IMG/VR virus record: IMGVR_UViG_3300035698_005117
Span: 1 to 39,494 of that record
Origin: a virus
Length of the DNA: 39,494 nt
Strand: one strand, 5' to 3'
The notes under the pieces were generated by a model. The model was given only the letters and a program-made list of their open reading frames with translations. It did not search any database and was not told where the DNA came from. A program made the position numbers and the translations under genes. Within the stretch, counting starts at the first letter, position 1. Every line of letters begins with the position of its first letter. Positions 10,191-37,536 of this stretch are shown here, piece after piece.

Positions 10191-11267
10191 TCAATCCTTT
10201 ATATTATTTATAAAATTTACACATTTTTTCATCACCAATTCTCTATTATTATTTACATCACTTTCCCAAATAATCAAAACATCATAACCATTATTTTTTG
10301 CTATATTATTTTTTATTTCATCATCTTTCCAAATATTTTTAGCTACTTTAGATTTTCCACCATAATACTTCAATATATCATCATCATTGTATTTTTTAGG
10401 ATTGGCATGCCAATAATCACCATTAAATTCAATAATCTTTTTATTGTTTTTAGCTTCAAAATCATAAAAATAATATTTTTTATCATTTATTAAAAATAAT
10501 TCTCTTTTACCATAATAACAATCCAAATCATCAGTCAAATTAGAAACTAATTCAGTAAAAAAATCAAAAGATGATTTTGAATAAAATCCATTATTATGCA
10601 ATGTATTGTTTTTTATTTTTGTTTGTAAACTTTTATCCTTTATATCTTGACGTTTTATTGCTGGATAACACCCATATCTTTCAATAGTTGTTTTTTTTAT
10701 TCTTTCCTTAACAATATCAGATTTGCAACTTGGATAACACCCATATCGTTCAATTGATGATTTTATTACTAAATCTTTACGTGTAATAAATATACATTCT
10801 TCTTTTTTCATCTTTTTGGATTTCCATTTATTATAACACTTTTTATTACAAAAATGATTATTTTTTTTATTCAATCTTGATAATGGTATGCGTTTTTCTT
10901 TTCCACAATTTGAACATTTAACTGATGAATATTTTTTATATTCATTAACCGATATCTTATTTTTAGTCAACTTATTAGATATTTTACAGCATTTTTTAAA
11001 ATATAAATCCAAACCAAGTTCTTCACCATAGCATATAATAAAATCATCTTTAGATTTTGGTTGACAAGTTGAACAAAATAAATTATATCCTTTAATTATT
11101 CCATTAAAATTTGTTTGATTATTACATTTTAAACAATTACCATCACCACTTTTCTTATAATACTTATTATAATAATCTTTAGATTTTACTTTATGAGTTT
11201 TTAAATGGTATCGTGCTATATAATCAAGACCTTCAAACTCTTTTCCACAAATAAAACATTTTTCCAT
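10191..11267 (-). CDS. Free-standing homing endonuclease, Vsr-like (EDxHD type), with zinc fingers
   Basis: 358 residues. The N-terminus has paired Cys/His motifs (C4-x2-C7 with H21 and H25; C45-x2-C48; C65-x2-C68; C118-x2-C121; C140/C144) suggesting zinc-binding DNA contacts. Residues about 172-215 hold two copies of an IERYGCYP repeat followed by a Lys-rich helix, a module common in phage homing nucleases. The C-terminus carries FYDFEAKNNKKIIEFNGDYW (D269, E280, D284) then H287, and later W313...GYDVLIIWESD. This fits the Vsr-like nuclease fold of I-Bth0305I-type homing enzymes. It is inserted between the spike gene and the 164-residue gene. It ends in TGA, unlike the structural genes. Strong SD AGAAGGGG. 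Nuclease class is by motif; homing role inferred. Confidence 0.8.
   Translation of the reverse strand: MEKCFICGKEFEGLDYIARYHLKTHKVKSKDYYNKYYKKSGDGNCLKCNNQTNFNGIIKGYNLFCSTCQPKSKDDFIICYGEELGLDLYFKKCCKISNKLTKNKISVNEYKKYSSVKCSNCGKEKRIPLSRLNKKNNHFCNKKCYNKWKSKKMKKEECIFITRKDLVIKSSIERYGCYPSCKSDIVKERIKKTTIERYGCYPAIKRQDIKDKSLQTKIKNNTLHNNGFYSKSSFDFFTELVSNLTDDLDCYYGKRELFLINDKKYYFYDFEAKNNKKIIEFNGDYWHANPKKYNDDDILKYYGGKSKVAKNIWKDDEIKNNIAKNNGYDVLIIWESDVNNNRELVMKKCVNFINNIKD
10205..10212 (-). promoter_or_regulatory. T4-type late promoter box for the 164-residue gene
   Basis: TATAAATA inside the last codons of the Vsr-like nuclease gene, 16 nt before the ATG at 10188. The predicted start at 10199 gives a leader starting AAAGGAT, so the gene stays expressed despite the inserted nuclease upstream. 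Confidence 0.55.
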
Positions 11268-19283: not shown

Positions 19284-20066
19284 CTATTTTATTAGTTCTC
19301 TTTCTATTTTCCATTTTTTATAAAATTCGTCTTGTCTTTTAAAGGATTTTCTTATACTCCCATAATTAAGATTGAATTTTATACAAAAATTATTTATATC
19401 TTTAAATTTGTATTCTTTTTTATTTGGTGAAATGAATGTATATGAATATTTATGATTTGCATTTAATTCTCCAAATCTACCTTTTTTAGAATCTGATATT
19501 TTTCTTTTACAACCATCAGTTCTCTCTGTACCAATATTTATATTACTTCTTTTTTCTACATCCCAATACTTCAAACGTCTGCGTATTAATGGTATTGATG
19601 TTTCAGTTTTTATTGCAATATTTTCAATTGGCATCCCAGAATCGTATAATTTTAATAATTCATTTTCATCAATATTTTTCCATCTACCATTTGATTCATT
19701 TTGTAAACCAGAAAATTCTTCTCCACCATCAGTTATATTTACTAATGGACCATTATTTTTTATAATTCTTCCTATTTTATCAACTAAATCAAATTCTAAT
19801 TTATACGATTCATTTTCATTTATTTTATTTTTATATTTAATAACTATAGGTTCTAAATTTAATTTCCATATTTTTCTAATTTTATTCAATCTATAATTAC
19901 TGACATCACTATATTTAGCTTCTGTTAAATGCACTTTCCAACGCCGTTTACATCCTTTGCCAACATAAAAGGGTTCATGATCAAATTCATATTTTCCATA
20001 AACATATTTTCCTGGTTTTCTTGGATCAAGATACACATAAACATAAAATCTTTTTTCATCTTTCAT
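19284..20066 (-). CDS. GIY-YIG homing endonuclease
   Basis: 260 residues. The GIY-YIG core is at residues 7-45: FYVYVYLDPRKPGKYVYGKY, then EPFYVGKGCKRRWKVH; Y10/Y12, G36-K-G38 and a downstream E91 (KLEFDLVDKIG) are the expected catalytic set. NITDGGEE near residue 135 is also typical of this phage family. The C-terminus has helix-turn-helix-like segments (IAIKTETSIPLIRRRLKYWD; FCIKFNLNYGSIRKSF) for DNA recognition. Inserted between sheath and tube genes, as free-standing homing genes of T4-like phages often are. A structured leader (20097-20156) and late promoter precede it. SD AAGGAG. Ends TAG. Confident on family; homing target unknown. Confidence 0.88.
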   Translation of the reverse strand: MKDEKRFYVYVYLDPRKPGKYVYGKYEFDHEPFYVGKGCKRRWKVHLTEAKYSDVSNYRLNKIRKIWKLNLEPIVIKYKNKINENESYKLEFDLVDKIGRIIKNNGPLVNITDGGEEFSGLQNESNGRWKNIDENELLKLYDSGMPIENIAIKTETSIPLIRRRLKYWDVEKRSNINIGTERTDGCKRKISDSKKGRFGELNANHKYSYTFISPNKKEYKFKDINNFCIKFNLNYGSIRKSFKRQDEFYKKWKIERELIK

Positions 20067-22684: not shown

Positions 22685-23022
22685 TTACCCATTTATAACA
22701 TCCATACATTGTCGTTCATATAATTTTCTTTTATCACTCAATTTTTTTGTATTACACATTGCTGAATTTGTTTGCCCATAGCACAATCATCATTAAAACA
22801 AAATTTCATAAATCCTTCAATAAAATTATTTTTCACCAATCGTAATCTTTTACCACAACATAAACAGTTAGTATCATCTTTTTTAAAATATTTATCATAA
22901 TATTCTAATTTCTTCGCATCATCAAAATTATGTACATCTATTAAATGTTTTTTTAATGACCCCAACCTTTCAAACTTTACATTACATATTTTACAATTAT
23001 AATTTAATACCTTTATTTGCAT
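22685..23022 (-). pseudogene. Relic of a zinc-finger homing endonuclease
   Basis: An open frame from ATG 23022 (AAGGAG upstream; a GTG at 23031 is too close to the SD) encodes a C-x2-C...H-x4-H finger (CKICNVKFERLGSLKKH) followed by CLCCGKRL and MKFCFNDDC. This matches in spacing the N-terminus of the Vsr-like nuclease at 10191-11267 (CFICGKEF..., NCLKC, FCSTC). After DDCA the frame runs to TGA at 22738, but the -1 frame continues sensibly as NSAMCNTKKLSDKRKLYERQ to a TAA at 22685. So the gene appears frameshifted and lacks the repeat and nuclease domains entirely. It is probably a decayed mobile element; a surviving DNA-binding fragment is possible. Confidence 0.65.
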
Positions 23023-23035
23023 TATAACCACTCCT

Positions 23036-23062
23036 TTTTATTTTAAAATATTTATGAAAAAA
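23036..23062. repeat. 27-bp direct repeat, right copy
   Basis: Exact copy of 22124-22150. It overlaps the last codons and stop of gp17 (stop at 23052). Confidence 0.9.
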
Positions 23063-25925
23063 GTATTAATGGTGAGTCGTCATCATCACCTAAATTATAC
23101 TCATCATCTATTCTTTTTACACTTGTATCCTTACCATCAAAAAAATGAGTTGTTAAAAAATACATCCCCCAAATCAATGATGTCACACAATCATCATGTG
23201 TTGTTCTTGTTTCTGCTTTAAATACGTTTGGTGTTACCTCTATGTATTTAGATAACTCAACAACCGTATCTCTATCATTTAATTTTAACCAACCATGTTC
23301 AAGATATCTTTTTAAATTCAAATTAGCTTTCAACTTACTTTTTTTAGTTGACCTTATGCCAATACCTTTTTTATCACAATTTAATATAAGTTCATTCTCA
23401 TATTCAAACCAAATAGTTTGAGCAGTTTCTCCACCCTCACCGTTATTTTCAATCATCATATAAGCATTATTATAATATTGACTTATACCAATACACACTT
23501 TAGCAAATTCGTGTGTGTCTATCCTATTGTATTTATATATTGCAACTTGCTCTACACTTTTTTCATTTTCAATTTTTAATACTTGAACAACAGAATTGTC
23601 TCTGCCAGTTCCTTTTCCTGTGTCAATTCCTAATATATAAAGAGTGTCCTTTTTTGGTTTTTCAAAAATTGTGAATAAACCATTCCATTTAGTTAATACT
23701 GGTGGTATATATTCAAATCTTTCAAGAACATCACCATCTATCAATGTATTTGATGATCCTAAAAATTTACACCCAAATTCTTGGTTAAATTTTATTATAT
23801 TTCCATTCAATAAACTTATAGTTCTTTCTTTCCATTCTTCATCTCTATCTGGATGTTCCCACCAACCAACTTTAATAGGAAAAAAATCATTTTCTCCCTT
23901 AACTGCATTTGACCAATAATCATAGAAATGATTTAATCCAAGTGGGGTTTGATGTCCTAACATATTGTTATATGACACACTATGACACCATTTATCACCA
24001 TCAATATGGTTCAATGAAAAGTCATAAACTTTATTTTTAGACTTTATGATTTTACTTATTGGTTCCCATTTTATATCTTCTGAAATATTTTCATAAAGAT
24101 TATTTATAATAGGATTATTTAAACTCAATAACATCTGTTTATGTCTTAACATTAACATTCTTGAGAAATGAAAATTCTTTTTATAATTTCCTTTTAACAT
24201 TCCAGAATTTACAATTTTTTTATAATCATCATCATTATGAGTATATTTCAATGATGTTATGATATCTTTTGAATATGGAATAACATCAAAGCTATCTCTC
24301 TTAATACTTTCTGGTAAATATTTTTCTTTTAATTGTTTTCTCTTAAATCTAAAACCAATCATATCATAATATTTTCTTGACATTGTTTTATTTAATTCAA
24401 TACCAAAATATTCAGATTCAACTTTAACTAATTCATTTGGTGGTGTTATACCATTCACATAAGTTGACAATATACCAAAATTGTTTAGAATAGCTCTAAT
24501 CTGCTCTATAAGACGTTTTGATGATAATCTAATACACACAGTCCCCTTATTAATTTGACTACTCCCATCACCATCCATAATGCCTTGTAACATAGATACA
24601 ACATTATCTCTTGACATTTCAAATAATCTTTTAGGTATTATTTTTCGTGGTGCTTTTCTATTTAAATCAAACCCTAAAGATATTAAAATATCACATAATA
24701 TCTTTGAACTAATACTATAATGTAAACCATCAGGACAATAATATTTAAAACCTAAAGAATTTAAAACACCACTAACATCATCACCACATGTTATATTTAC
24801 ACCAGAATAAAATATATTGTTAATATTTTTTTTACTTCTTTGAATGCTACCCTCAGATATATACAGGCCGATAAAATAAGCAAAATCTTTTGTTATTTTA
24901 TCAATTCTATAATCATTAACATTGTGTTGATAATCATCAATATTTATTTTTGGAATAACATCATTATTTCCCCATTTATTCATTCCATATTTAATAGCAA
25001 TATATTCAGAACCATCTAAATCTTCAGTTCTAACCCAATCAAATTTTCCATTTTTACATACCCACCAAGGATGTCTTAATGAGCATTCAACTTTAGATGA
25101 TTGAGATGTTATAATTTTAGTATCAACATACCCACTATTAACCATTATTTTACCATTATTAACTCCATCTTTACCTATAACAGAATATTCATCAATTTCA
25201 TAACCAATGTTTGGGTGTTCAATCATATCATAATTAATAAAATCAGATACTTCTTTTATACCATTTGGTGTATTAACAAATGTATCATCTGTAACACAAG
25301 AAACCATTATAACTTTAGAATTTTTACTTGATGATACAACAGGCATTGTTGCTGTAATAAATTCTTGTGCTACATGATTTTTTACTTTTGCAAACTCATC
25401 CATATAAAGTAATGATATTGCTTCTCCTGATATTGAATCTGAAGATGTTGTTGAAGATATTGCTCTCATGCCATTTGCAAGTCTAATTGATGTTTTATTC
25501 CACCCACCTTCAACAATACCTTGTTGTAACCATATTGGTAACATAGCATATGCTAACTGAATTCTTCTCATAATTTCAGTTGCAGTTTTTTCTTTATTTG
25601 CCAATATTGCAACATTTTTATCTTTATTAAAAATCATATAATGTAACAAATATACAGTTGATGTTGTTGTTTTTCCACTTTGTCTTGGTAATAAAAGTAT
25701 GACGGATTTTTTACCTTTTGGATTTGATATAAATGCTTTTAATATTTTTTTTTGAAAACCATACAATTCAATTCTATGTTTACCTTTATCATTAGAAACA
25801 ATATAAAAATATTTTTCAGCAAAATAAATAATATCTTCTTTACATTTTATATATTCATTTATCAAATCTTTGGTATAAATAATCTTTTCGTGTTCTGCAC
25901 GTAAACTTTTATTACCTTGATACAT
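23052..25925 (-). CDS. 17: Terminase large subunit gp17 with in-frame intein
   Basis: 957 residues, of which 210-659 are an intein; the spliced protein would be 507 residues. ATPase: Walker A LLLPRQSGKTT (residues 77-87), Walker B LLYMDEFA (172-179). The N-extein ends SKVIMVS and the C-extein begins TPLGLNHFYDYW, which together restore the conserved 'TTPNGLNHFYDIW' motif region of T4 gp17. Nuclease: GIDTGKGTGRD (D768), MIENNGEG (E826), HDDCVTSL (D911, D912), the RNase H-like acidic triad. It powers DNA packaging and cuts the concatemer. It follows gp16 by 8 nt. SD GGAGAG. Very firm. Confidence 0.96.
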   Translation of the reverse strand: MYQGNKSLRAEHEKIIYTKDLINEYIKCKEDIIYFAEKYFYIVSNDKGKHRIELYGFQKKILKAFISNPKGKKSVILLLPRQSGKTTTSTVYLLHYMIFNKDKNVAILANKEKTATEIMRRIQLAYAMLPIWLQQGIVEGGWNKTSIRLANGMRAISSTTSSDSISGEAISLLYMDEFAKVKNHVAQEFITATMPVVSSSKNSKVIMVSCVTDDTFVNTPNGIKEVSDFINYDMIEHPNIGYEIDEYSVIGKDGVNNGKIMVNSGYVDTKIITSQSSKVECSLRHPWWVCKNGKFDWVRTEDLDGSEYIAIKYGMNKWGNNDVIPKINIDDYQHNVNDYRIDKITKDFAYFIGLYISEGSIQRSKKNINNIFYSGVNITCGDDVSGVLNSLGFKYYCPDGLHYSISSKILCDILISLGFDLNRKAPRKIIPKRLFEMSRDNVVSMLQGIMDGDGSSQINKGTVCIRLSSKRLIEQIRAILNNFGILSTYVNGITPPNELVKVESEYFGIELNKTMSRKYYDMIGFRFKRKQLKEKYLPESIKRDSFDVIPYSKDIITSLKYTHNDDDYKKIVNSGMLKGNYKKNFHFSRMLMLRHKQMLLSLNNPIINNLYENISEDIKWEPISKIIKSKNKVYDFSLNHIDGDKWCHSVSYNNMLGHQTPLGLNHFYDYWSNAVKGENDFFPIKVGWWEHPDRDEEWKERTISLLNGNIIKFNQEFGCKFLGSSNTLIDGDVLERFEYIPPVLTKWNGLFTIFEKPKKDTLYILGIDTGKGTGRDNSVVQVLKIENEKSVEQVAIYKYNRIDTHEFAKVCIGISQYYNNAYMMIENNGEGGETAQTIWFEYENELILNCDKKGIGIRSTKKSKLKANLNLKRYLEHGWLKLNDRDTVVELSKYIEVTPNVFKAETRTTHDDCVTSLIWGMYFLTTHFFDGKDTSVKRIDDEYNLGDDDDSPLILFS
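23949..25298 (-). mobile_element. Intein with LAGLIDADG homing endonuclease in gp17
   Basis: Residues 210-659 of the gp17 reading frame (450 residues). Block A starts with Cys: CVTDDTFVNTPNGIKEV. Block B-like VECSLRHPWWV at 279-289. Two LAGLIDADG helices: FAYFIGLYISEGS (348-360) and MLQGIMDGDGS (445-455). Block F KVYDFSLNHID and block G NNMLGHQ followed by Thr. The last intein residue is Gln rather than Asn, with the usual penultimate His kept. The insertion is in the ATPase coupling motif, a typical essential site. The nuclease domain looks intact. Confidence 0.92.
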
Positions 25926-32453: not shown

Positions 32454-33134
32454 TTACATATTTTTAATTTTTATTTCATTAATAAATTCAGTAAGATATT
32501 GTAAAGCATTTGAAGACATATCTTTACGTGTATATTTATTATATTTTTCATTTACTTTTTTTTGTAAATTTTCTACAGCTTTTTCTACAATTTCACCATC
32601 TTTACCAATGATAAACTCTTTATTTTCAAGAATTCCTTCCACAAATGCAGAAGGTGCGGACGGGTCGCAAACAATATCGATACATATCATTCGATATGAA
32701 TCTGCTACACAATTACCATCAAGTTCCCCAATACCACGTGTGGACATCCCAAGTAATATATTTTCATCAATCAACGTTTTTGCAATTCTTCCTTTTGGTG
32801 TATCTATAACTTTAGCACACCCATAACCAATATTGCCTTCCATTTTTAACTCTGTAATTAAATGTGACACTCTATCCAAATTTATAGTTGGGTCGGGCGG
32901 ATGGTCAAGTTCTCCTAATGACCTTCTTTTTTTTATTTTTTCATTATAGTATGTGTCAACTTCTCTAATTAATGTTTTTTTCATATATTTTCTATTATTT
33001 TTATTCAAAACCTCAGCTTCAAGAAATGGACCTTTCAAATAATATTGTTTCTTTTTTTCTCCATCAACTTCAGTTTCTTCTTTTATAATATCAATATCTG
33101 ATATGTCAATAAATTCAGTTAGCAGTTTAGCCAT
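32454..33134 (-). CDS. 21: Prohead maturation protease gp21-like
   Basis: 226 residues (T4 gp21: 212). Ser protease of the herpesvirus assemblin-like fold. Catalytic His H78 in SLGELDHPPDP, Ser S131 in LLGMSTRGIGEL; a conserved IDIVCDPSAPSAFVEGILE follows at 152-170. The opening strand YYLKGPFLEAEVLNKNNRKY (31-50) precedes the active region. It cleaves core and shell proteins during maturation. It lies between the prohead core and scaffold genes, the T4 order. Residues 18-46 are nearly duplicated in the short frame immediately upstream. SD TGGAG. Confidence 0.93.
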   Translation of the reverse strand: MAKLLTEFIDISDIDIIKEETEVDGEKKKQYYLKGPFLEAEVLNKNNRKYMKKTLIREVDTYYNEKIKKRRSLGELDHPPDPTINLDRVSHLITELKMEGNIGYGCAKVIDTPKGRIAKTLIDENILLGMSTRGIGELDGNCVADSYRMICIDIVCDPSAPSAFVEGILENKEFIIGKDGEIVEKAVENLQKKVNEKYNKYTRKDMSSNALQYLTEFINEIKIKNM

Positions 33135-33277
33135 TTTTTATCTCCATTGTTCTCTTTTTTTATAATATCTTTTAACAAATTTCTTCTTCCATTTTTATTC
33201 AAAACCTCAGCTTCAAGAAATGGACATTTCAAATAATATTGTTTCTTTTTTTCTCCATCAACTTCAGTATCTTCTTT
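32997..33277. repeat. Two 87-bp direct repeat copies: 5' part of gene 21 duplicated upstream
   Basis: Copies at 32997-33083 (inside gene 21) and 33191-33277 (upstream), offset 194 bp, differ at 2 of 87 positions. Both differences change amino acids. Confidence 0.93.
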
Positions 33278-33280
33278 CAT
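33119..33280 (-). CDS. 53-residue frame carrying a partial duplicate of the gp21 N-terminus
   Basis: Starts at ATG 33280, which overlaps the stop of the prohead core gene as TAATG, and ends at TAA 33119, overlapping the gp21 start by 16 nt. Residues 2-30 (KEDTEVDGEKKKQYYLKCPF, LEAEVLNKNG) copy gp21 residues 18-46 with two changes; the rest (RRNLLKDIIKKENNGDKKWL) is unrelated. The NKNGR it encodes is closer to the usual protease motif than the NKNNR of the full gene here. It may be a remnant of a replaced gp21 allele, or a translated decoy. No SD of its own, so coupled translation would be needed. Function unknown. Confidence 0.45.
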   Translation of the reverse strand: MKEDTEVDGEKKKQYYLKCPFLEAEVLNKNGRRNLLKDIIKKENNGDKKWLNC

Positions 33281-33468
33281 TATTTACCATCTATTGAAAT
33301 AGCAATAACTTCTTCCATTTGTTCTTTTGTAACATCATTTAAGTTTGAAAGAACATCAGTCTTTTTTTCATCAACTCTAACTTTAATCATTGCAGCAGCT
33401 TTACTTTCAATATGTTGTTTTAAATCTGCCCAATCTCCGTCCAATACAGTTTTTATAAGTGATTTCAT
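33280..33468 (-). CDS. Prohead core protein, gp67/gp68-like
   Basis: 62 residues: SLIKTVLDGDWADLKQHIES, then KAAAMIKVRVDEKKTDVLSN, LNDVTKEQMEEVI. The 'lI..il.gD...a...f...mA.k....v...K.dv' pattern is that of small T4-type prohead core proteins. Location between portal and protease equals genes 67 and 68 of T4. Strong SD AGGAGG and a late promoter upstream. It probably joins the scaffold and is cleaved by gp21. Which of gp67 or gp68 it corresponds to is not clear. Confidence 0.7.
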   Translation of the reverse strand: MKSLIKTVLDGDWADLKQHIESKAAAMIKVRVDEKKTDVLSNLNDVTKEQMEEVIAISIDGK

Positions 33469-33837: not shown

Positions 33838-35688
33838 TTAATTTCCACTTTTATTCTTTTTATTCTTTTTAAGAATTTGTTTATCTAACTCAACAAATTC
33901 ACTAAGAAGTTTATTTTTATTATTTGTTAATTTAAAACTTTCTTCTGTACCACCGACATCAAATTCATCAGCAGATGATGGTTCAGTCCCACCTTGAAAT
34001 CCTTCACCTTCACCACCAGGTTCTACACCAAACTCTTCACCACCTGTTTCACTACCAAATTCATCAGCACCAGCTTCATTACCAAATTCTTCTTCACCCG
34101 CAACTTCTTCTTTTTTATCATCAAAACCAACTGATTGTCTTAATGCAGCAGCAGTTTTTTTCTCACTTTCTAACATCTCTTTATTTATATTATATTCATC
34201 ATCACTCATCATAAACCAATTACGTAATACAAATTCTTTAGAAAAATATCCATTTTCATTTTCTTCTGGTTTGTAAATATAAGATTCAATTGATCCAAGT
34301 AAAGCAAAACGAGATTCTAATAATTCTAAATCTTTATATTCTTTATATTCATTTTGTTCTGTAAATATGATATTATACAATGAATAATCAATATATCTTT
34401 TATCAACGACATCCCGAACACGTAATAATGTGATAAACGAATCAAGGAGGATTGGTTTAAATTTCTTTTGAAGTCTTTGTACAAATTTTGAAAATTGAAT
34501 TTCTTCTCTTGTAATTTCACCAGATTTGCCAGTACTAAACATTTGTGTGCCTTCAACATCTGCCCAACGTGTAGAAGGAAGTTTTAATGTTTTATATAAT
34601 TTTTTAAGAAAATATTCAACATCTTGCATTTCACCAAGATTTTGTCCTGCTCCTAATGTATCAACAGTAGTTCCTTCACCATCCGAATTTTTTTGAAACC
34701 AAAAATCTTCAACCATAGCTTGAATATTACCAGCACTATCCATCGCACCAGTACTTGAATCATATTTAATTCTTTTTCTATATCTTTGCATCACACCACG
34801 TAAATATTCATCAGCTTTTGTTTTAGGCATTCTACCAACATTAATATTCCAAATTCTTCTTTCTGGTGCTCTTACTAATCTATAAATAACAACAGCATCT
34901 TCAAGATTTTTTAATTGGTTATATGTTCTAATTGATGCTTCAAGAAATCCTCTAACGTCATATCTATTTCTACCAATATCACCATAATTAACATATATGA
35001 TTTGATCTTTATCAAAATAAATATTTTTATCTTCAGAAGGAGCACCATAACTTTGTCCAGCATCAATATTAATAGGCTTTACTGATTGAACAAACCCCAC
35101 AATTTTATTTTCTTCATATACTGGCACCATAGTATGTGCCGGTAAAATTTTAAATCCAATAATATCTACACCTTCATTATCAAGAACTAATTCTATATAT
35201 AACTCACCATCGACTAACCATTTTCTAAATAAATCCCATGCTATTTCACCAAAATTAAAAACTTCATCTGTTAAATAATTCCATTGTTTTTTAATTTCAT
35301 CTTCTATATGTGATGGCAATTCTTCTTTAATATCAAGTTCAATCATAATACCTTTTGATGATTCTGACATCGCATCATCACATATATTATCAAGAGCATC
35401 AGATATTTCTGGATATCTTGACATCTCACGATACGTTGATATTCTTTGTGCCTTATTTCCAAAATACTGGTCAAATTGTATATTAATAGAAGTCATTCCA
35501 TTCATATAATTACCATGTTGTGAAGTATGGTAATTTGAACCTGTAGGCATCATACCTAAATCAAATTGTTCTTGAGATATACCCTGACTATTTTCTGCTG
35601 CTTCTCTATCTCTAAGGTCTTCAGCCATTCGACCAACCTTAAAGAATTTAGCATATTTATTTAAATCAAAAAAATCTGCAATTCCCAT
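33838..35688 (-). CDS. 20: Portal protein gp20-like
   Basis: 616 residues (T4 gp20: 524). Diagnostic segments: YREMSRYPEISDALDNICDD (about 80-100), then PAHTMVPVYEENKIVGFVQS, EASIRTYNQLKNLEDAVVIY, RLVRAPERRIWNINVGRMPK, KADEYLRGVMQRYRKRI and GEMQDVEYFLKKLYKTLKLP. The ring of twelve forms the packaging vertex and the docking site for gp17 and the neck. The extra length is a low-complexity C-terminal tail of Glu/Gly/Phe units (EEFGNEAGADEFGSETGGEE). SD AAGGAG. Confidence 0.96.
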   Translation of the reverse strand: MGIADFFDLNKYAKFFKVGRMAEDLRDREAAENSQGISQEQFDLGMMPTGSNYHTSQHGNYMNGMTSINIQFDQYFGNKAQRISTYREMSRYPEISDALDNICDDAMSESSKGIMIELDIKEELPSHIEDEIKKQWNYLTDEVFNFGEIAWDLFRKWLVDGELYIELVLDNEGVDIIGFKILPAHTMVPVYEENKIVGFVQSVKPINIDAGQSYGAPSEDKNIYFDKDQIIYVNYGDIGRNRYDVRGFLEASIRTYNQLKNLEDAVVIYRLVRAPERRIWNINVGRMPKTKADEYLRGVMQRYRKRIKYDSSTGAMDSAGNIQAMVEDFWFQKNSDGEGTTVDTLGAGQNLGEMQDVEYFLKKLYKTLKLPSTRWADVEGTQMFSTGKSGEITREEIQFSKFVQRLQKKFKPILLDSFITLLRVRDVVDKRYIDYSLYNIIFTEQNEYKEYKDLELLESRFALLGSIESYIYKPEENENGYFSKEFVLRNWFMMSDDEYNINKEMLESEKKTAAALRQSVGFDDKKEEVAGEEEFGNEAGADEFGSETGGEEFGVEPGGEGEGFQGGTEPSSADEFDVGGTEESFKLTNNKNKLLSEFVELDKQILKKNKKNKSGN

Positions 35689-36838: not shown

Positions 36839-37246
36839 TTATTTAGGTTCTGTTAATACTGCTGCACACCTTGTTTTAATTTTATCGAGCATTTTCATTT
36901 TTTCTTTATAAACAATATCTCTAACTTTTTTCTGCACTTTAGTCAATTCTTTTCCATCACCAACTACAATAACCTTTCTTAATTCATTTCCAAGACTATT
37001 ACTAATCTTTGTTTCATTTGGAAAAAAATTATCAATATAAAGAACAAGCCTACTCACAAATTCTGGTGGTAATCCCATCTTGCCATCATTATAATTAGAT
37101 TTTGTGTCATGAACATCAATATCTTCACGTGCTTTATCTTGACGTTTTTCAACAGGTTTTACATTTATTCTTTCCTTTTCATCATCCAAATCTTTACCTA
37201 AGAATGTTGTAAGTTCATCTAAAAATGCTTCATATATTTTTTCCAT
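36839..37246 (-). CDS. Unrecognised helical protein
   Basis: 135 residues, charged and helical. Segments FLDELTTFLGKDLDDEKERI and PPEFVSRLVLYIDNFFPNET, then KKVRDIVYKEKMKMLDKIKT. No family recognised. Start overlaps the HNH gene stop (TAATG), with GGAGAAC upstream. Confidence 0.55.
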   Translation of the reverse strand: MEKIYEAFLDELTTFLGKDLDDEKERINVKPVEKRQDKAREDIDVHDTKSNYNDGKMGLPPEFVSRLVLYIDNFFPNETKISNSLGNELRKVIVVGDGKELTKVQKKVRDIVYKEKMKMLDKIKTRCAAVLTEPK

Positions 37247-37536
37247 TATTGTTCTCCATGAAACTGAGTTTCACCATTACTATCTATATATTCCAATATT
37301 CTTCCACCTGTTGATTGCATCCATCTATTTAAAATTATGGAATTGTCTGCTTTTATTTTATGTATACCTCGTGTGCCTTCAATGAATATTTTATTATGAC
37401 AATTTGGACATAAAAAAATGACATTATTTTTATTATCATTTGTATTTTCATGTTCTTGTGGAATTATATGATGTCTGTGTATTTGAAACCGAAATTCAGT
37501 TTCATATTTACATCCAGGAAATTGACACTTATGCAT
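37246..37536 (-). CDS. HNH endonuclease
   Basis: 96 residues. Zinc ligands C4, C9, C43 and C46; the HNH core is HRHHIIPQEHENTN (H20-R-H22-H23), N38 and CPNCHNKI (H47). Compact HNH nucleases of this type occur both as homing genes and beside head genes of many phages, where they can assist packaging. It overlaps both neighbours by a few bases, so it looks integrated in the operon rather than freshly inserted. Ends in TAA. Confidence 0.85.
   Translation of the reverse strand: MHKCQFPGCKYETEFRFQIHRHHIIPQEHENTNDNKNNVIFLCPNCHNKIFIEGTRGIHKIKADNSIILNRWMQSTGGRILEYIDSNGETQFHGEQ

Follow-up and report, generated by a model that had tools for sequence, protein, structure and literature searches.

In T4 homing systems, illegitimate repair of double-strand breaks has been described that leaves microhomology junctions, and a deletion form of I-TevIII illustrates decay by deletion (PMC2988022). 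T4-like phages also carry free-standing homing-endonuclease genes of the GIY-YIG (Seg-like) type. Here we describe a locus in the T4-type head cluster of a 39,494-nt stretch of viral DNA (IMG/VR virus record IMGVR_UViG_3300035698_005117; hereafter the window) that compares with these systems in a probable endonuclease insertion next to an essential head gene. That head gene, gene 21, belongs with the T4 gp21 prohead core protease (Peptidase S77; PDB 5jbl). As in the I-TevIII case, decay would have proceeded by deletion, and, as in T4 microhomology repair (PMC2988022), a junction falls within a short shared sequence, here AAAAATGG. Unlike Seg-like genes and their degenerate forms, only about 17 codons of the putative endonuclease gene are left, fused to a piece of the neighboring gene, and unlike in the T4 homing experiments (PMC2988022), we infer the junction from natural sequence. 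We found no description of an endonuclease insertion at gene 21, or of a partial duplication of this sort, in the openly licensed literature.

Results

A partial copy of gene 21 lies upstream of the complete gene

The head cluster occupies the minus strand of the window and comprises gp20 (33838-35688), two small ORFs, a 62-aa core-like gene, gp21, gp22 and gp23 (Table 1). The complete gene 21 matches the Peptidase S77 family over the whole domain and carries the invariant H78 and S131. The core-like gene is syntenic between gp20 and gp21 in four close relatives (L004, L005, L014 and L016), with 63-73% identity. It has no significant family match, and because the 55-aa core component of Synechococcus phage S-CREM1 showed no significant similarity to its family, its designation as gp67 rests on position.

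Table 1 Features of the gene 21 locus and the intact endonuclease gene of the window
Feature	Position	Strand	Basis or remarks
Full gene 21, prohead core protease (Peptidase S77)	32454..33134	-	PF03420 E 9e-27; PHROG 207; PDB 5jbl E 2e-22
Source copy, gp21 codons 18-46	32997-33083	-	Repeat comparison
53-codon chimeric mini-frame	33119..33280	-	TAATG, gp21 codons 18-46 and out-of-frame endonuclease tail; overlaps gp21 start
Very probable 3' remnant of GIY-YIG homing-endonuclease gene, ending KKKFVKRYYKKREQWR-stop in gp21 frame	33138..33190	-	Match to L016 relic
Shine-Dalgarno-like GGAG for gp21, inside endonuclease remnant (TGGAGATAA), likewise in L016	33142..33145	-	Sequence
Upstream copy, gp21 codons 18-46 (87 nt, 2 mismatches)	33191-33277	-	Repeat comparison
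62-aa small prohead-core-like gene (gp67 position)	33280..33468	-	Stop TAA overlaps mini-frame ATG
Intact GIY-YIG homing endonuclease between tail genes	19284..20066	-	LEM-3-like GIY-YIG E 9e-11

Codons 18-46 of gp21 recur upstream of the gene, with 85 of 87 positions identical and a start-to-start spacing of 194 nt; a repeat of this length and fidelity is far beyond chance. The sequences flanking the two copies are unlike on both sides. These observations agree with a sequence-only reading of the locus, which had described the repeat, its spacing, its two differences and its dissimilar flanks. One mismatch (A to T) gives D in the upstream copy in place of E20 of gp21, and the other (G to T) gives C in place of G35. 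Since D is also found at position 20 in all four close relatives, the upstream copy keeps the older state of gp21 there; its Cys35 replaces a Gly that is invariant in nine aligned gp21s. In the predicted fold (mean pLDDT 71), residues 18-46 make up most of strands 2 and 3, strand 1 being formed by residues 3-9, so that the earlier suggestion that the fragment holds the first strand of the protease did not hold. The conserved His78 and Ser131 blocks lie outside the repeated segment.

The upstream copy is read within a 53-codon mini-frame that opens at the TAATG of the core gene, its ATG overlapping the stop of that gene as the sequence-only reading had noted, remains open throughout, and closes inside the gp21 start region. 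L005 and L014 already have this TAATG at the stop of the core gene, with GAGG or GGGG after it. The mini-frame has no Pfam match, and its match to PHROG 207 reaches only E 0.003 over 28 residues. Unlike T4 gp21, the fragment comprises residues 18-46 only, without the catalytic block; it thus lacks the conserved His (GELxHPP) and Ser (STRG) blocks of the protease core and is not a Peptidase S77/gp21 member. No conserved small head gene corresponding to it is present at the same place in L004, L005, L014, L016 or any other gp21-bearing locus (134 in all), the loci of an identical contig excepted. Likewise, a comparable duplication of gp21 is lacking from all 134 gp21-bearing loci that do not belong to the window's own lineage, the only matches elsewhere being weak ones of 14-40 bases or residues and of another kind. 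We rejected the mini-frame as an independent gene; its relatives in viral contigs are only matches to gp21 itself.

The sequence upstream of gp21 resembles the end of a homing-endonuclease gene

The 53 nt between the upstream copy and gp21 end, in the gp21 frame, with a stop that precedes the start codon of gp21 by 3 nt. L016 has, at this genomic position between the core gene and gp21, a 130-codon ORF that ends SKNGNKYLKRYIIKREKWR-stop just before the gp21 start. The N-terminus of this ORF is 64% identical over 22 aa to the intact GIY-YIG gene of the window, the ORF is without the middle of the catalytic domain, and its NUMOD3 match is weak (E 0.24). The window's tail, read in the gp21 frame as KFVKRYYKKREQWR-stop, and the C-terminus of the L016 relic, KYLKRYIIKREKWR-stop, are identical at 9 of 14 residues and at the stop. 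Aligned with the last 40 residues of the L016 ORF, the tail scores 54, a value reached by none of 5000 dinucleotide shuffles (maximum 49). It is also the best place for the end of the L016 relic on the minus strand of the window, followed by the intact GIY-YIG gene at 19.3 kb, whose C-terminus ranks second. Scores above 35 were confined to L016 and the window's lineage when 95 distinct gp21 upstream regions were compared; the whole-window BLAST E-value for the tail against L016 is only 0.018. In addition, the window and L016 have in common TGGAGATAA followed by ATGGC around the gp21 start.

The resemblance to a relic at the same genomic position makes it very probable that 33138-33190 is what is left of an endonuclease gene. 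We stop short of a firmer identification because the match is short (14 residues and the stop), involves one relative, and lies in AT-rich DNA. The segment has no GIY-YIG catalytic domain; it would be a 3' remnant and not a functional member of the family. We also considered whether the tail is divergent gp21 sequence and rejected this; another frame matches the endonuclease C-terminus, including its stop.

The core gene-gp21 boundary differs among the other close relatives. In L005 and L014 the two genes are separated by a clean gap of about 13 nt, and in L004 the gap contains the end of an HNH/endonuclease-VII-like gene (PHROG 1035 E 7e-10). Endonuclease relics in three of the five close lineages mark this boundary as a repeatedly invaded site. 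The L016 endonuclease was also sought in intact form; viral contigs yielded only its own contig, and isolated phages no match. A scan of genome contigs for gp21 gave four distant matches, none of them informative, and a co-conversion test along gp21 gave no clear similarity switch between L016 and the L004/L005/L014 group, although gp21 begins MAKLLTE in both L016 and the window.

The arrangement recurs in a second, identical contig

The same arrangement is found in IMG/VR contig 3300025697_000443, which matches the window over 9663 nt at 100% identity. When both junctions were sought in viral contigs, they were present in this contig only. Because it ends within a few bases of the end of the window, the two assemblies may share reads, and their independence is uncertain.

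Discussion

The observed order is core gene, TAATG, gp21 codons 18-46, 53 nt resembling an endonuclease 3' end, and the complete gene 21. We consider it probable that the mini-frame is a scar left when a homing endonuclease was gained and lost alongside an essential capsid gene, and that the frame itself is a chimeric by-product. Judging from L016, gene 21 and the small core gene would once have been parted by a free-standing GIY-YIG homing-endonuclease gene, and the ribosome-binding site of gp21 would have been contained in the final codons of that gene. A short shared sequence, AAAAATGG, may then have served for unequal or illegitimate recombination that duplicated a 194-nt unit consisting of the endonuclease tail and gp21 codons 1-46, and the body of the endonuclease may have been lost by a deletion reaching from the stop of the core gene to codon 18 in the first gp21 copy. 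In L016 AAAAATGG stands in the endonuclease tail, and in L004 and L014 it lies at codons 45-47 of gp21; AATAAAAAT closes the gp21 copy, and GGAAGAAG follows in the tail. Recombination at AAAAATGG would give exactly the spacing observed, and tandem duplication followed by deletion would explain the different flanks without a second allele. Microhomology at the left junction is minimal. We infer the order of the steps and the exact breakpoints, because no intact ancestor with the order core gene, full endonuclease and gp21 came to light. The earlier view of the fragment as a remnant of recombination, and not a simple tandem duplication, is thus upheld; the fragment is absent from every relative examined, where an independent conserved gene was not seen.

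The same parts could have been put together in another order. A cut in gp21 near codon 46 of an endonuclease-free genome might have left a broken end that microhomology then linked to a donor's endonuclease tail, or a template switch might have copied gp21 codons 18-46 as filler. One-sided repair in T4 yields microhomology junctions, free-standing phage homing endonucleases tend to sit in or near functionally critical genes (PMC2988022), and the conserved NxNxR block marks the end of the gp21 copy. However, a single repair requires an active endonuclease whose cut site cannot be inferred here, and the second junction at the core-gene stop would still have to be accounted for; we regard this route, the template-switch variant included, as unlikely. 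A more pointed version, in which the homing event was aimed at gp21, the endonuclease cutting near codon 46 and failed repair leaving a partial copy that is now the translational leader of the protease, is improbable. Also of low probability is the proposal, which the sequence-only reading had based on NKNGR in the upstream copy and on the dissimilar flanks, that recombination between phages brought in another gp21 and left a remnant of an older, displaced allele next to it. The motifs were correctly read: around residue 47 (32990-33000) the gp21 of the window has NNR, whereas the upstream copy's frame has NGR, as do all close relatives, and NNR, NGR and NKR all occur among gp21s, NNR and NKR in more distant ones. 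The D20 of the copy, which agrees with L004, L005, L014 and L016, does preserve an older state. Yet NKNGR spans the junction, the letters after NKN matching the endonuclease C-terminus in its own frame and not gp21, and so it does not demonstrate a displaced allele. Moreover, the copy is identical to the resident gene at 85 of 87 positions, whereas the gp21s of the nearest relatives share only 67-75% of residues, and C35 departs from the invariant Gly.

That the 53-aa frame is expressed and modulates gp21, whether by binding, as a substrate or through coupling, is very improbable. The TAATG coupling, the overlap with the gp21 start and the uninterrupted frame speak for such a role; against it, the frame has no homologue outside the identical contig, L005 and L014 have the TAATG already, the tail is read out of frame, and the invariant Gly is lost. 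If the frame is translated, the most that its stop, lying in the gp21 start region, could do is to maintain translational coupling between gp21 and the upstream gene. Least probable of all is an artefact of assembly: the copies are short and the second contig may derive from the same reads, but the copies differ at two bases and have unlike flanks, the upstream copy continues into sequence that has a biological match at the syntenic position, and the second contig has both junctions too. The duplication is short and recent, and the mini-frame is most likely a harmless recombination scar, neither a new protein nor an old version of the protease. The locus is of interest as a case of homing-endonuclease decay at an essential capsid locus and is otherwise ordinary. 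At single-base level it shows a possible route by which phages shed a homing endonuclease next to such a gene, and such loss can create new overlapping reading frames and partial duplications that resemble genes.

Other nuclease-like genes and intein-like inserts

Endonuclease-like ORFs occur in the head clusters of further loci. One lies just upstream of gp21 (L038:41-451; recognized by eye only, no Pfam hit) and another upstream of a gp67-like gene (L029:86-691; NUMOD3 E 3e-14), which suggests repeated invasion of this cluster. Within the window, likely mobile nucleases are numerous. In the 224-kb contig 3300035698_007246, a region that can be aligned with the window carries a 67% homologue of the intact GIY-YIG gene. 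An HNH nuclease gene is found at 37246-37536 (minus strand) and a zinc-finger/DUF559-like possible endonuclease at 10191-11267 (minus strand); the first part of this possible endonuclease is resembled by a short zinc-finger ORF at 22738-23031 (minus strand). An intein-like insert bearing LAGLIDADG motifs (PF14528 E 1e-12) lies in frame within the large terminase gene (23052-25925, minus strand), and the portal (gp20) genes of two distant relatives (L066:2293-4254 and L061:2828-3493) contain an apparent intein-like insert.
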